Source: an uncultured Fusobacteriaceae bacterium (GTDB lineage: Bacteria; Fusobacteriota; Fusobacteriia; Fusobacteriales; Fusobacteriaceae). From it: a stretch of 49,133 bases of DNA. Shown here piece after piece: positions 5,281 through 11,247 of this stretch. The stretch is from positions 1-49,133 of the forward strand of contig CAMQWJ010000013.1 in the NCBI GenBank assembly GCA_947038515.1. The letters are read 5' to 3'. Every line of letters begins with the position of its first letter. Positions within the stretch are counted from its first letter, which is position 1. Both the position numbers and the translations under genes were made by a program. The notes under the pieces are model-generated. The model was not told the origin of the DNA and searched no databases. It worked only from the letters and a program-made list of their open reading frames with translations.

Positions 5281-5309
5281 TTTACAAAAATTTAAAATTG
5301 TGTTATTAT
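5281..5309 (+). promoter_or_regulatory. Promoter of the pyr operon
   Basis: TTTACA at 5281-5286 and TATTAT at 5304-5309 are separated by 17 bases, with a TG one base before the -10 (extended -10). Transcription would start near 5316, leaving a leader of about 255 bases before pyrB. Confidence 0.65.
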
Positions 5310-5419
5310 TTTAAAGATAAAAAAATAACAACAATAAATAAATTTAGAGAAATGGAAAAAAACTGAATTTTTTGTATAAAATAATATATTGAATTTTGAT
5401 AGTGGATAAGGAGGGAAAG

Positions 5420-5524
5420 ATGAAATTACGTAGACCTAGATCATGTTATTCTAGTTGTATTTTTATTTTTTTCTCCTTTATTCATTTTCATTTATTATTT
5501 GAAGAAGTAACAGCTATTTATTAA
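5420..5524 (+). CDS. 34-residue U-rich leader peptide of the pyr operon (pyrL-like)
   Basis: An ATG at 5420 follows an excellent AAGGAGGG site (5408-5415) and opens a 34-codon frame. The peptide begins MKLRRPRS and continues with a run rich in Phe, Ile, His and Leu. Between 5461 and 5500, 29 of 40 bases are T. The frame runs into a terminator hairpin: its stop codon (5522-5524) sits in the loop and first bases of the 3' arm. This is the architecture of the E. coli pyrBI leader, where low UTP slows RNA polymerase in the U-rich segment, lets the translating ribosome catch up and prevents terminator folding. That mechanism is known there and inferred here. The early arginine codons leave amino-acid sensing as a weaker alternative. 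Confidence 0.75.
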   Translation: MKLRRPRSCYSSCIFIFFSFIHFHLLFEEVTAIY

Positions 5525-5546
5525 TAGCTTTTACTTCTTTTTTTTT
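5504..5546 (+). terminator. Attenuator terminator before pyrB
   Basis: The arms 5504-5518 and 5523-5537 pair at 14 of 15 positions around a four-base loop and are followed by nine Ts (5538-5546). The hairpin overlaps the end of the leader peptide and lies 25 bases before pyrB, so it must be conditional for the operon to be expressed. Confidence 0.85.
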
Positions 5547-5571: not shown

Positions 5572-6642
5572 ATGAATAATTTTATTTCTATGAAAGATTT
5601 TGAGAAGGAGCAAATAATAGAAATCCTTAATTATGCTTCTATTTTAAAAGAAAAAAAAGATAACACTAATATTTGTGATAAGAAAATAATTGCTTCTTTA
5701 TTTTTTGAACCTTCAACAAGAACAAGATTATCTTTTACTTCAGCAGCTTTTAGAGTTGGGGCAAAAGTATTGGGATTTGATTCTCCTGATGCAACCTCTA
5801 TTCAAAAAGGTGAAACCCTTAGAGATACCTTAAAAGTCATAAATGGTTATAGTGATTTAATAATTATGAGACATCCAAGAGATGGAGCTGCAAAATTGGC
5901 TACTGATATAGTGGATATACCAGTTATAAATGCAGGAGATGGTTCTAATGAACACCCTTCTCAGACTATGCTAGATCTTTTTACAATAAAAGAGGAGTTT
6001 AGTACTTTAGAAAATTTAAAAGTGGCATTTTTGGGTGATTTAAAATATGGTCGTACAGTGCATTCATTGACAGAAGCCCTCTCTCTATTTAAAACAGAGT
6101 TTTATTTTGTAGCAAATGAGATTTTACAAATACCTAAATATATTTTAGAAGACTTGGATAAAAAAAATATTAAATATCATATTCTAGATAAATATGATGA
6201 GATTCTTTCTGAAATAGATGTTTTGTATGTTACCAGAGTTCAAAAAGAAAGACTTCCTTCACTGGAACTTTACGAAAAGATAAAAGATGATTTTATTGTT
6301 AATAAAGAAAGTATTTTAAATTGTAAAGAATCAATGATAATACTTCATCCATTACCTAGAATAAACGAGATTAATATTGATGTAGATTCAACAAAACATG
6401 CAAAATATTTTACACAAGCAAAGAATGGATTAATAATGAGACAGGCAATGATTGCAATTGCTTTAGGGGATAAAGAAATAAAAAAAAATCAAAGAGAAAA
6501 AAAAATAATAATAAAAAAATCAGAAAAAATAGTTTGTGAAAATCCAAATTGTATTACACATGTGGAGAATACCGAGAATAAAGTGATTGAAGAAAAAAAT
6601 AAAAATTTTTGTTATTATTGTAGTCGAGAAATAACTTTATAA
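5572..6642 (+). CDS. pyrB: Aspartate carbamoyltransferase with fused PyrI-type zinc domain
   Basis: Catalyses carbamoyl phosphate plus aspartate to carbamoyl aspartate, the committed step of pyrimidine synthesis. Residues 1 to about 305 are a complete catalytic chain with FEPSTRTR for carbamoyl phosphate, NEHPSQ, and HPLPR. A lysine-rich linker follows, then a zinc knuckle with Cys322, Cys327, Cys347 and Cys350 (C-x4-C, C-x2-C). This matches the C-terminal zinc domain of the separate regulatory chain PyrI, including CENPNCITH. The nucleotide-binding allosteric domain of PyrI, about 100 residues, is absent. CTP/ATP feedback of the E. coli type is therefore unlikely, and control may rest on the upstream attenuator. 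First structural gene of the operon, with ATG after AAAGGAGGGG. Confidence 0.95.
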   Translation: MNNFISMKDFEKEQIIEILNYASILKEKKDNTNICDKKIIASLFFEPSTRTRLSFTSAAFRVGAKVLGFDSPDATSIQKGETLRDTLKVINGYSDLIIMRHPRDGAAKLATDIVDIPVINAGDGSNEHPSQTMLDLFTIKEEFSTLENLKVAFLGDLKYGRTVHSLTEALSLFKTEFYFVANEILQIPKYILEDLDKKNIKYHILDKYDEILSEIDVLYVTRVQKERLPSLELYEKIKDDFIVNKESILNCKESMIILHPLPRINEINIDVDSTKHAKYFTQAKNGLIMRQAMIAIALGDKEIKKNQREKKIIIKKSEKIVCENPNCITHVENTENKVIEEKNKNFCYYCSREITL

Positions 6643-6672: not shown

Positions 6673-7482
6673 ATGTTTTTAAAAGATTGTAAAATTATTA
6701 GTAATGTTAATGTAGCTTTAAATTATTTCATCTTAACTGTTGAAAATAGGGAAGCAGTGGAAAAAGTGAGAGCAGGACAATTTTTTATGTTAAAGTGCAA
6801 GAATGAAGCTACTTTTTTAAGGCGACCAATTAGCTTACATAATTGTGATCCTCTTAATGGAACTTTAGAATTTTTGTATGAAGTAAAAGGAAAAGGAACA
6901 TTGGAATTTTCTAAATTATCATCAGATGAAACAATTAATATCCAAGGTCCCTTAGGGAATGGGTTTAATGTAGAAGAAAAAAATAAAAACATTGCTATTG
7001 TCGGTGGTGGAATGGGTATGGCTCCTTTAAAATTATTAATTAAAAATTTAAACCTAAATAATAATGTTAAATTATTTTTAGGAGTACATTCCAAAGAATA
7101 TATTAATGTTTTAAAAAGTTTTGAAACTGTAATAGAAAAAGAAAATATACATATTGCTTCAGATGATGGTTCAATAGGGGTAAAAGGCAATGTAGTAGCA
7201 ATTTTTAAAGAGGAATTGGAGAGGAGTAAATTTGATAAAATATACTCTTGTGGACCTGAAAAAATGTTGGAAGCTCTCCATGAAGTAGCAGTAAATAACA
7301 ATATATTACTTGATATATCTCTTGAAGAGAGAATGGCTTGTGGAGTCAAAGCTTGTGTGGGGTGTTCAATAAAAACAAAAGAGGGAATGAAAAAAATATG
7401 TTACGATGGTCCAGTTTTTTCAAGTAGCAAAATAATAGAATTACATCCAAAAGAAAAAGTTGAGAATAGTTGCTGTAACTAG
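6673..7482 (+). CDS. pyrK: Dihydroorotate dehydrogenase B electron transfer subunit
   Basis: The 269-residue PyrK passes electrons from PyrD to NAD+ through FAD and a [2Fe-2S] cluster. It contains the FAD-binding RRPISLHN motif near residues 54-61, the NAD-binding stretch VGGGMGMAPL near 114-123, CGPEKML near 195, and a C-terminal cysteine cluster (MACGVKACVGCSI) with a further cysteine in KKICYDGPVF. Length is normal for the family. It lies 30 bases after pyrB, with GGGAGG before the ATG, and next to pyrD, as expected for a heterotetrameric class 1B enzyme. Confidence 0.95.
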   Translation: MFLKDCKIISNVNVALNYFILTVENREAVEKVRAGQFFMLKCKNEATFLRRPISLHNCDPLNGTLEFLYEVKGKGTLEFSKLSSDETINIQGPLGNGFNVEEKNKNIAIVGGGMGMAPLKLLIKNLNLNNNVKLFLGVHSKEYINVLKSFETVIEKENIHIASDDGSIGVKGNVVAIFKEELERSKFDKIYSCGPEKMLEALHEVAVNNNILLDISLEERMACGVKACVGCSIKTKEGMKKICYDGPVFSSSKIIELHPKEKVENSCCN

Positions 7483-7543: not shown

Positions 7544-8515
7544 ATGAAAATTATGAATGAAGTTCTAAAGAAAGAATTAAAAAAAGGTGAAAATAGTTGT
7601 GAAGATTTATTGAAAACTATTTTTTTAGGAAAAGAATTCAAAAATCCAATAATAACCTCTTCAGGATGTTTTGGTTTTGGATTGGAGTATAAAGATTATT
7701 TTTCTCCAAATGAATTAGGTGGAATATCAATGAAAGGTCTAACTCTTGAGGAAAAAGATGGTAATTATGGAACAAGAATATCAGAAACCCCATCAGGTCT
7801 CTTAAATTGTGTTGGTCTTGAAAATCCAGGGATAAAATATTTTAGAGATGTAATTTTGAAAGAGTTAAAAAAAGAGAAATTAAATACTGTAATTATCGCT
7901 AATATTAATGGAAAAAATATGGAGGAATATATTGAGATAGCAAAAATTGCTAATACCATTTCAGAGATAGATATGGTAGAATTAAATATATCTTGTCCCA
8001 ATGTTAAAGATGGAGGAATGGCGTTTGGTTCCAATCCAGAAGTAGCAGGGGCAGTGACAAGAGAAGTAAGAAAAGTTCTTTCAAAACCACTTATAGTAAA
8101 ACTTTCTCCCAATGTAACAAATATTGTTGAAATAGCAAAAATTGTTGAAGAAAATGGAGCAGATGCAGTATCTCTAATAAATACTCTTCTTGGAATGGCA
8201 ATAGATATAGATAAGAAGAAACCTATTTTAGGAAATATAATGGGAGGACTTTCTGGTCCTGCTGTGAAGCCTGTAGCTCTTAGAATGGTTTATCAAGTAT
8301 CAAAGGCAATAAAAATACCTGTGATTGGTATGGGTGGAATTAACTCCCCAGAAGATGCACTGGAGTTTTTAATGGCGGGAGCATCGATTGTATCTGTAGG
8401 AAGTGGTATTTTTCCAAATCCAATGCTACCAATAGAAATAAAAAAAGGATTAGAAGATTATTGTATTAAAAATAAATTAAAAAATATATCAGAAATAGTT
8501 GGAGTAGCTCACTAA
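7544..8515 (+). CDS. pyrD: Dihydroorotate dehydrogenase, class 1B catalytic subunit
   Basis: Oxidises dihydroorotate to orotate using FMN and passes electrons to PyrK. The 323-residue chain is a TIM barrel with ITSSGCFGFG near residue 38, the class 1B active-site segment NISCPNVK whose cysteine acts as catalytic base, and the C-terminal FMN phosphate sites (GMGGINSPEDA and SVGSGIF). The N-terminus carries about 20 extra residues before the usual start, so the ATG at 7553 is possible too. The long gap between the ribosome binding site and this start is described under 7501-7543. Confidence 0.95.
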   Translation: MKIMNEVLKKELKKGENSCEDLLKTIFLGKEFKNPIITSSGCFGFGLEYKDYFSPNELGGISMKGLTLEEKDGNYGTRISETPSGLLNCVGLENPGIKYFRDVILKELKKEKLNTVIIANINGKNMEEYIEIAKIANTISEIDMVELNISCPNVKDGGMAFGSNPEVAGAVTREVRKVLSKPLIVKLSPNVTNIVEIAKIVEENGADAVSLINTLLGMAIDIDKKKPILGNIMGGLSGPAVKPVALRMVYQVSKAIKIPVIGMGGINSPEDALEFLMAGASIVSVGSGIFPNPMLPIEIKKGLEDYCIKNKLKNISEIVGVAH

Positions 8516-8531: not shown

Positions 8532-9275
8532 ATGAATAAAATAAAAAACAATACTATAGAGACAAGAGATAGAATTATTGTAGCTCTTGATTATTCAAAT
8601 ATGGAAGATGCTAAAAAAATGATAAATAATTTAGGTGAAAATGCCTCTGTTTATAAGGTGGGATTAGAATTATTTCTAAATTCTGAAGGAAAAATGGTAG
8701 ATTATTTAGTAGAACAAAAGAAGAAAGTATTTTTAGACCTTAAATTTCATGATATCCCAAATACAGCAGCAATGGCATCAATTTTTGCTTCTAAAGAAAA
8801 ATGTTTTATGTTTAATGTTCATGCTAGTGGTGGAAAAAAAATGATGCAAACTGTAGCAGAAAAAGTTAAAGAAATTAATAAAGAAGTTTTGATAATAGCT
8901 GTAACAGTATTAACAAGTTTAAGTGAAGAAGAGGTAAAAGAAACATTTAACTCTAATTTTACTCTTACAGAGTTAGCAGAGAATTGGGCAAAACTTACAA
9001 AGGAAGCAGGACTTGATGGTATCGTTTCATCACCATGGGAGGCAAAATCTATAAAAGAAATTTGTGGAAAAGATTTTAAAACAATTTGTCCAGGAGTTAG
9101 ACCAGAGTGGTCTGTAGCAAATGACCAAAAAAGAATAATGACACCTAAAAAAGCAATATTAAATGGCTGTGACTATCTTGTTATTGGAAGACCGATTACA
9201 GGTCATGCTGAACCTAAAGTAGCTTTTAATCTCATTCTTGAGGAGATAGAAGAAGCTTTATTAGAACTTAATTAG
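8532..9275 (+). CDS. pyrF: Orotidine 5'-phosphate decarboxylase
   Basis: Converts OMP to UMP, the last step of the pathway. The 247-residue protein shows IVALDYSN near residue 16, the catalytic lysine/aspartate array in FLDLKFHDIPNT near 67-78, and the phosphate-binding end VIGRPIT near 220. Length is typical of the short bacterial form. It starts 16 bases after pyrD with AAGGAGGAG before the ATG and belongs to the same operon. Confidence 0.95.
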   Translation: MNKIKNNTIETRDRIIVALDYSNMEDAKKMINNLGENASVYKVGLELFLNSEGKMVDYLVEQKKKVFLDLKFHDIPNTAAMASIFASKEKCFMFNVHASGGKKMMQTVAEKVKEINKEVLIIAVTVLTSLSEEEVKETFNSNFTLTELAENWAKLTKEAGLDGIVSSPWEAKSIKEICGKDFKTICPGVRPEWSVANDQKRIMTPKKAILNGCDYLVIGRPITGHAEPKVAFNLILEEIEEALLELN

Positions 9276-9313: not shown

Positions 9314-9946
9314 ATGAATTGTAAAGAAAAAGTGGCACAGGCATTATTAACAACTGAGGCAGTTAGATTAAATGTAGGAACACCTTTCACCTTTGTTTCA
9401 GGAATTAAAAGTCCTATATATTGTGATAATAGAAAAGTAATTGGGTTTGTTCATGAGAGAGAAATTATTATAAATGAATTTATAAAGAAAATAGAAAAAA
9501 TGGAAGACTCAGGAAGAGGATTTGATGTAATAGCAGGAACTTCAACAGCAGGGATTCCTTGGGCAGCATATATTAGTGATAAGTTAAAAAAACCTATGGC
9601 CTACATTAGAGGTGAAAAGAAAGCTCATGGTACTGGAAAACAAATAGAGGGTGCAGATTTTAATGGAAAAAATATTTTGATTATAGAAGATTTAATATCA
9701 ACAGGGGGAAGTTCAATAAAAGCTGTTGATGTAGCAAAAGAAAATGGAGCTAAAGATATTTTTGTTTTAGCTATTTTCTCATATGAGTTTGAAAAAGCAT
9801 ATACAAGTTTTAAAAATGCAGAAACAGAATGGACTTCACTTTCAAACTTTCCATCATTACTTGAAGTTGCTAAGGAGAATAGCTATATAACAGAGGAAGA
9901 ATTAAATATTGCTAAAAAGTGGAATTTAGACCCTAGTAAATATTAA
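9314..9946 (+). CDS. pyrE: Orotate phosphoribosyltransferase
   Basis: Joins orotate and PRPP to give OMP, the substrate of PyrF. The 210-residue protein has the substrate-site SPIYCDNR near residue 34, GTSTAGIPWAA near 76, the mobile loop YIRGEKKAHGTG near 97-108, and the PRPP motif ILIIEDLISTGGS near 121-133. It is preceded by AGGAGG, lies 38 bases after pyrF and is followed by pyrC. Confidence 0.95.
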   Translation: MNCKEKVAQALLTTEAVRLNVGTPFTFVSGIKSPIYCDNRKVIGFVHEREIIINEFIKKIEKMEDSGRGFDVIAGTSTAGIPWAAYISDKLKKPMAYIRGEKKAHGTGKQIEGADFNGKNILIIEDLISTGGSSIKAVDVAKENGAKDIFVLAIFSYEFEKAYTSFKNAETEWTSLSNFPSLLEVAKENSYITEEELNIAKKWNLDPSKY

Positions 9947-9978: not shown

Positions 9979-11247
9979 ATGCTTTTAATAAAAAATGCTA
10001 CAATTGTTCTGGGAGAATATGTGAATACTATTGAAAAAGAAAAACAAGATTATTTATTCATGACAGATATTTTAGTAAAAGATGAAAAAATTATAAAGAT
10101 TCAAAAAAATATCTTTATAAGTAAAAGCGTTAGAAGGAATTTAATAACAATAGATGCAGAATATAAATATGTAATCCCTGGTATAGTAGATCCACATTGT
10201 CATATGAGAGACCCAGGTTTTACAAATAAAGAAGATTTTATTACAGGAAGTAAAAGTTGTATACGAGGTGGTATTACAACATTTTTAGATATGCCAAATA
10301 CTTCACCTTTAACAATAACTAAAGAAAATTTAGAATTAAAAAGAAAAAACTCTTTAAATAGGAGTTATTCTGATTACGGTTTTCATTTTGGTGGAAGTAA
10401 AGAGGATAATTCATCAGAAATATCACAAGTTTCTCATGAAGTTGCATCGACAAAAATATTTTTGAATGCTTCTACTGGTGATATGCTTATAGAGGATAAT
10501 AAAGTTTTAGAGAATATATTTTTTGAATCAAGTATAGTTTCTTTTCATGCAGAAGATGAAAAGGTTAAAACAGCGATAGACTTAAGTGAAAAATTTAATG
10601 CTCCAATTTATTTATGTCATATTTCGACTGAAAAAGAATTAGAGTTTATAAAAAAAGCTAAAATGAAAGGTCTTTCTATTTTTTCAGAAGTTACACCACA
10701 TCATTTATTTTTAAATGCAAAATCAAGAGAGATATCAGACCTTAATAATAAATTATTGAGAATGAAACCAGAATTGAAAACTAGTGAAGATAATGAGAGT
10801 TTATGGCAAGGGTTAGACAGTGGATTAATAGATGTTGTTGGAACAGATCATGCTCCTCACACTCTTGAAGAAAAATTAGAAAGTACGGTATTTGGAATAC
10901 CAGGTGTAGAACATTCTTTGGAAATGATGCTTAATGGTGTTAATGATAAGAAGATAACAATGTATACTCTTATAAGGGCAATGTCTATAAATCCAGCTAA
11001 AATTTTTAAAATTAAAAATAAAGGTAAAATAGAATATGGATATGATGGTGATTTTATTATTCTGGATATGGATGAACAGACAACTATTACCAATGATGAG
11101 GTTATTTCCAAGTGCGGTTGGACACCATATAATGGAATGAAGCGTGGTGGGAAAATATTAACAACTATATTACGTGGAAATATTGTTTATGATAAGGGGA
11201 TTTTTTTTGATTTATTAGGTAAAGAGGTTGAATATAAAAAAAATTGA
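9979..11247 (+). CDS. pyrC: Dihydroorotase
   Basis: Cyclises carbamoyl aspartate to dihydroorotate. The 422-residue amidohydrolase shows the metal-binding PHCHMRDPG motif near residue 73, later histidines in SFHAEDE, LCHIST and TPHHLF, and the catalytic aspartate in GTDHAPH near 290. Size fits the longer class I dihydroorotases of Firmicutes. It ends the pyr operon; carAB, pyrR and a uracil permease are not in the window. Its stop codon lies inside the -35 box of the tRNA-Gln promoter. Confidence 0.93.
   Translation: MLLIKNATIVLGEYVNTIEKEKQDYLFMTDILVKDEKIIKIQKNIFISKSVRRNLITIDAEYKYVIPGIVDPHCHMRDPGFTNKEDFITGSKSCIRGGITTFLDMPNTSPLTITKENLELKRKNSLNRSYSDYGFHFGGSKEDNSSEISQVSHEVASTKIFLNASTGDMLIEDNKVLENIFFESSIVSFHAEDEKVKTAIDLSEKFNAPIYLCHISTEKELEFIKKAKMKGLSIFSEVTPHHLFLNAKSREISDLNNKLLRMKPELKTSEDNESLWQGLDSGLIDVVGTDHAPHTLEEKLESTVFGIPGVEHSLEMMLNGVNDKKITMYTLIRAMSINPAKIFKIKNKGKIEYGYDGDFIILDMDEQTTITNDEVISKCGWTPYNGMKRGGKILTTILRGNIVYDKGIFFDLLGKEVEYKKN

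Follow-up and report, generated by a model that had tools for sequence, protein, structure and literature searches.

Several attenuators have been described in which a terminator placed before a biosynthetic operon decides whether transcription continues. In Firmicutes, the attenuation of pyr operons usually depends on PyrR, and the pyrimidine-responsive terminator that precedes the operon requires this protein together with an anti-antiterminator (RNA family RF00515). In amino-acid attenuators, such as those of trp and his, a leader peptide and a terminator are combined with ribosome stalling and alternative hairpins. The pyrE attenuator of E. coli (coupled to rph) relies on translation up to the terminator, coupled to a transcription speed that depends on UTP, although what is translated in this case is an entire gene upstream rather than a short leader. 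The closest described system is pyrL, ahead of pyrBI in E. coli, where a ribosome closely coupled over the leader blocks termination (PMC5021804). In the same species, pyrimidine control of carAB is exerted at promoter P1 (PMC6245113). In the open-access literature that was searched, we found no account of attenuation in the pyrimidine operons of Fusobacteria.

The window analysed here is a stretch of 49,133 nucleotides from an uncultured Fusobacteriaceae bacterium (contig CAMQWJ010000013.1; genome G000 in what follows). It carries the operon pyrBKDFEC, preceded by a leader region with an organization resembling that of pyrL. The features of both are as follows.

5281..5309, + strand, predicted promoter with -35 TTTACA, a 17 nt spacer and extended -10 TGTGTTATTAT (sequence reading)
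5397..5425, + strand, 5′ arm of a long hairpin, holding the leader Shine-Dalgarno (SD) sequence (5409-5414) and start codon (5420-5422) (minimum free energy structure of the leader)
5420..5524, + strand, leader ORF, 34 codons plus TAA (sequence; in-frame openness kept in relatives)
5461..5500, + strand, U-rich tract with 29 T among 40 nt, where transcription is proposed to slow depending on UTP (T count)
5501..5540, + strand, intrinsic terminator hairpin (putative attenuator), 17 pairs, with the leader stop codon inside (folding)
5538..5546, + strand, terminator tail, nine T (sequence reading)
5572..6642, + strand, pyrB, aspartate carbamoyltransferase, with a C-terminal PyrI_C-like metal-binding stretch (TIGR00670, 366.7 bits; PF02748, E 7.6e-4, below gathering)
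6673..7482, + strand, pyrK, dihydroorotate dehydrogenase electron transfer subunit (profile match)
7544..8515, + strand, pyrD (profile match)
8532..9275, + strand, pyrF (profile match)
9314..9946, + strand, pyrE (profile match)
9979..11247, + strand, pyrC (profile match)

An earlier note on this DNA had described a pyrL-like attenuator extending from a promoter to a T run, and the span that it gave is correct. The extended -10 promoter that it reported can be read as TTTACA-17-TATTAT, with TG ahead of the -10, and genome G007 has a similar one (TTTACAAATTTAAAATCGTATGTTATACT); promoter-like sites are not enriched, with 9 observed versus 7.7 in shuffles. The gap between promoter and leader SD (5310-5395) is approximately 80-100 nt longer than in relatives, and a weak second promoter-like site lies within it (5353-5382). 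The leader ORF begins with an ATG at 5420, ends with a TAA at 5522-5524 and encodes the peptide MKLRRPRSCYSSCIFIFFSFIHFHLLFEEVTAIY; its SD, which had been called excellent, is indeed an AGGAGG located 5 nt before the ATG. The count of 29 T in 40 was likewise confirmed, and no other 40-mer in the + strand of the whole window matches it, the highest count inside window genes being 27. Regarding the terminator, the nine Ts and the location of the stop codon in loop and 3′ arm were borne out, the first base of the codon being the last of the loop (5519-5522), but folding gives 17 pairs, with one 1x1 internal mismatch and -17.9 kcal/mol, instead of the 14 of 15 pairs that had been counted. The leader transcript as a whole folds with a z of -5.0. 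A detector of leader ORFs followed by terminators fires at only one of 49 window genes, pyrB itself.

The locus therefore has the components that characterize a pyrL-type device: a leader ORF with an SD before pyrB, a U tract within this ORF and a terminator that a ribosome could block. From this arrangement, we consider it probable that the device attenuates transcription in the manner of pyrL, with UTP being sensed through the coupling of transcription and translation. With ample UTP, the polymerase would cross the U tract fast, with no ribosome close behind it, and the terminator would fold, stopping transcription before pyrB. When UTP is scarce, the polymerase would slow down in the tract, allowing the ribosome on the leader to catch up and cover the 5′ arm of the terminator, so that pyrBKDFEC would be transcribed. 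A second layer, likely but less certain, may be added to this model: the finished U tract would pair with the SD and start codon of the leader, and, consequently, fast transcription would shut the entry of ribosomes, while slow transcription would leave them time to load. By contrast, no antiterminator pairing was found between the U tract and the 5′ arm of the terminator (z 0.14), which argues against a switch of alternative hairpins and sets the device apart from the trp and his attenuators, which it resembles in having a leader peptide and a terminator.

A protein such as PyrR binding the leader RNA to control the terminator, with an incidental ORF, would correspond to the usual pyr regulation of Firmicutes, and it has a precedent within the same family, as the three genomes of genus g4 (G016-G018) are the only ones of the 98 compared with a PyrR protein above cut-off. 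The same three have the PyrR-binding RNA RF00515 at E<=0.001, besides a weak match, below cut-off, in G039. In G016-G018, the leader ORF is absent and pyrB is divergent (36 percent identity); it looks like the regulatory system was replaced along with the operon in this genus. In G000, however, the best match to the PyrR profile reaches 35.8 bits, against a cut-off of 138, and belongs to an ORF that, by its motifs, we take to be a hypoxanthine phosphoribosyltransferase; the earlier note had reported no pyrR in the window. Searches for RF00515 gave no hit, either at gathering score in the window or at E<=0.001 in G000, and the PyrR-binding anti-antiterminator that the earlier note had named as contradicting its reading was not found. 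PyrR control was rejected for this genome, as neither the protein above cut-off nor the RNA was found, and, considering also that the frame of the leader is conserved in an open state (see below), protein binding of any kind seems very improbable as an explanation.

The open frame of the window leader is not significant by itself (P=0.28 in dinucleotide shuffles) and, consequently, the comparison across genomes had to decide. The comparison set comprised 98 genomes of the class Fusobacteriia, of which targeted stretches were used (a scan of genome contigs yielded 5 loci only). pyrB was detected in 92 of the 98, and 76 regions upstream of pyrB and 40 upstream of carA were compared with a detector that demanded an SD, a start codon, an open frame and a terminator. 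Including that of the window, 79 leaders were found ahead of pyrB or carA, distributed over 61 genomes from 17 genera, and 55 of the leaders are non-redundant. Among the 41 non-redundant leaders examined first, 40 have the frame of the start codon open as far as the hairpin, versus 0 and 2 for the other frames, a count that is biased by the detector itself having demanded an open frame. For this reason, the analysis was repeated choosing the start by the SD alone, whatever its frame, and 52 of 54 leaders were open up to the hairpin, as opposed to approximately 4 percent of shuffled leaders. The stop codon lies within the hairpin in 71 of the 79. The layout persists between genera while the leader sequences are largely unrelated, and this recurrence in most of the Fusobacteria examined of a U-rich ORF that enters a terminator, kept despite the differing sequences, supports the pyrL-like reading; it is also what the cross-genome check suggested in the earlier note was to look for. 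In the Leptotrichia-like genus g21 and in genus g12, the leader was absent at the places examined.

The same comparison bears on whether the short ORF might code for a small membrane protein with a role of its own, with the terminator standing before pyrB by chance. The second half of the peptide is hydrophobic and the copy found in Ilyobacter is annotated as a hypothetical protein, as would be expected of such a gene; however, the peptides are unrelated between genera, the stop codon falls in the hairpin, the arrangement is found before both pyrB and carA, and synonymous sites have more T than expected (see below), all of which makes this explanation barely credible.

Codon choice points to the RNA as the object of selection. 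On average, U makes up 0.56 of the 45 nt that directly precede the hairpin, versus 0.40 of the preceding part of the ORF (p 1.4e-9), and 1252 T are observed in the leaders versus 1192 expected from their amino acids and codon usage (z 5.8), an expectation that takes the codon usage of the window, i.e., of one genome, and is approximate for the others. For instance, the shares of ATT, TCT and GTT are 0.66, 0.62 and 0.71 in the leaders and 0.45, 0.29 and 0.44 in the window. As the excess is at synonymous sites, U is favoured at the RNA level, which indicates that it is selected beyond what hydrophobic residues need. The enrichment is variable: leaders of genus g9 are only moderately U-rich (0.38-0.42), and the carA leader of G067 (L138) is not U-rich (0.16), though its ORF enters the terminator, and may sense something other than UTP.

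For the device in general, a ribosome-dependent attenuator with a signal different from UTP could be envisaged, either an amino acid (e.g., Phe or Ile) or another metabolite sensed by arrest of the nascent peptide. This would be in accordance with the abundance of Phe, Ile and Leu codons in the U-rich half and with a weak protein-like bias, since differences between close relatives are more frequent at codon positions 3 (254) and 1 (212) than at position 2 (129). Nevertheless, an arrest peptide would need a shared sequence, and none is seen between genera; no alternative hairpin was found that a stalled ribosome could favour; and the excess of synonymous T, along with the fact that the controlled genes belong to the pyrimidine pathway, makes such a signal unlikely.

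In addition to its composition, the U tract has a partner within the leader. In the window, 28 pairs join 5397-5425, which includes SD and start codon, to 5461-5490, so that part of the tract is the SD-complementary 3′ arm of a long hairpin; the duplex has -28.2 kcal/mol, with a z of -4.2 to -5.5 against dinucleotide shuffles. Over the 55 non-redundant leaders, the duplex of the SD/start region with the tract is stronger than with dinucleotide-shuffled tracts (mean z -1.40, p 8e-9), whereas controls with the region just upstream (z -0.02) and with ordinary window genes (z -0.20) show no such effect. Swapping the tracts between genera confirmed that complementarity is with the own tract (p 4e-7, 41 leaders). 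Pairing of the tract with the SD of the structural gene, pyrB or carA, was considered and rejected (z -0.03). Leaders of carA show less of this complementarity (mean z -0.97), and some pyrB leaders show none (L061, L062). When the growing transcript is folded, the accessibility of the window SD starts at approximately one half and has dropped to 0.01 by the time the tract extends to +63; that of the SD of E. coli pyrL behaves similarly. The mean accessibility of the SD over the leaders is 0.24; it rises to 0.31 when the tracts are shuffled, and ordinary genes have 0.48. Composition thus accounts for most of the occlusion, and specific pairing for only a part of it. The U-rich stretch appears, then, to mask the ribosome-binding site of its own leader.

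These observations could also be read as the U tract being mainly an anti-SD arm, in a hairpin that either sets the translation of the leader whatever the UTP supply or shields the message at its 5′ end, without any use of a race paced by UTP. The length of the hairpin in the window and the specificity of the complementarity for the leader SD would agree with this, but in many leaders the U tract reaches past the paired part, and the conservation of an ORF open up to the terminator is best explained by contact between ribosome and terminator. Pairing as the main function is, consequently, quite unlikely, and UTP sensing through coupling continues to be the reading that we prefer.

The comparison with E. 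coli pyrL reveals both common and distinct traits. The leader ORF with a good SD, the U tract and the intrinsic terminator before pyrB are common to both. In E. coli K-12, there is likewise complementarity between the U tract (UCUUCCCG) and the SD region (CGGGAGGA), with a z of -2.8, and the same is observed in Photobacterium (-2.9) and Aeromonas (-2.7), while it is weaker in Klebsiella (-0.65) and Proteus (-0.71), in a gammaproteobacterial sample of few sequences, some of them from mislabelled plasmid and phage records. By contrast, Fusobacteria have a longer tract; their stop codon is inside the hairpin, while that of E. coli is beyond it; the GC-rich pause hairpin of the latter (GCGTCTGAAAAAAGACGC) has no counterpart in Fusobacteria; and the fusobacterial device serves carA too. 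None of five fusobacterial peptides matched the PyrBI_leader family (PF08052 / NF007587), for which the PyrL of E. coli, used as control, scored 117.1 and 120.1 bits; as the leader peptides have no similarity to PyrL, a common origin is not demonstrable. The window peptide also gave weak hits to toxin models, unrelated and far below cut-off, which were set aside. We tentatively suggest that, in pyrL-type attenuators generally, that of E. coli included, the U tract might be both a pause zone and an anti-SD arm, UTP setting a race between the synthesis of this arm and the loading of the first ribosome and, in this way, gating initiation on the leader as well as the spacing between ribosome and polymerase.

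The complementarity between SD and tract and the use of the device for carA are new, although the complementarity in E. coli pyrL may have been noted already in the original pyrBI papers. If our reading is right, much of a phylum without PyrR would control de novo UMP synthesis, in two operons, by an RNA device that depends on coupling, and ribosomes would be predicted to follow closely behind the polymerase in Fusobacteria. Whether such close following occurs outside the E. coli group is a disputed point. Additionally, the SD complementarity, being common to E. coli pyrL, would add a new testable step to a textbook mechanism.

The second operon is represented in the genome of the window, where carA is on another contig (G000:C4:129187) and has its own leader (MNLISKNHFFECIIRIKDFINYFYFIFNYFLSFYLKQLYKYFKI), with an ORF that ends in the 5′ arm of the terminator and a sequence unrelated to that of the pyrB leader. 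In genera g8, g10 and g14, pyrB is downstream of carB, and the leader precedes carA instead. Two regions upstream of carA that were missed by the detector (L205 and L209) resemble leaders by eye.

Other genes were also inspected. Before uracil/xanthine permeases, no convincing case was found, as four automatic matches look like the ends of ordinary upstream genes (U 0.31-0.33), and an NCS2 permease gene of G000 (L181) has a purine riboswitch upstream (RF00167, 49.1 bits). The C-terminus of the PyrB of the window (6520-6642) resembles PyrI_C at the sub-gathering E value given above, without the allosteric domain of PyrI; in Ilyobacter, pyrI is a gene of its own. As for CTP synthase (PyrG, TIGR00337), no match was obtained in G000, which is rated 100% complete, or in G049 and G003, while 14 of 14 controls matched; CTP may depend on salvage in these three genomes. 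No leader ORF was seen by eye in five regions upstream of pyrG. Just upstream of this gene, L183, L184, L185, L191 and L192 have a terminator-like hairpin with a loop of approximately 8-10 T and a T-rich tail (e.g., GGCGAATTTTTTTTTTCGCCTTTTTTT), which is possibly another nucleotide-sensing attenuator.
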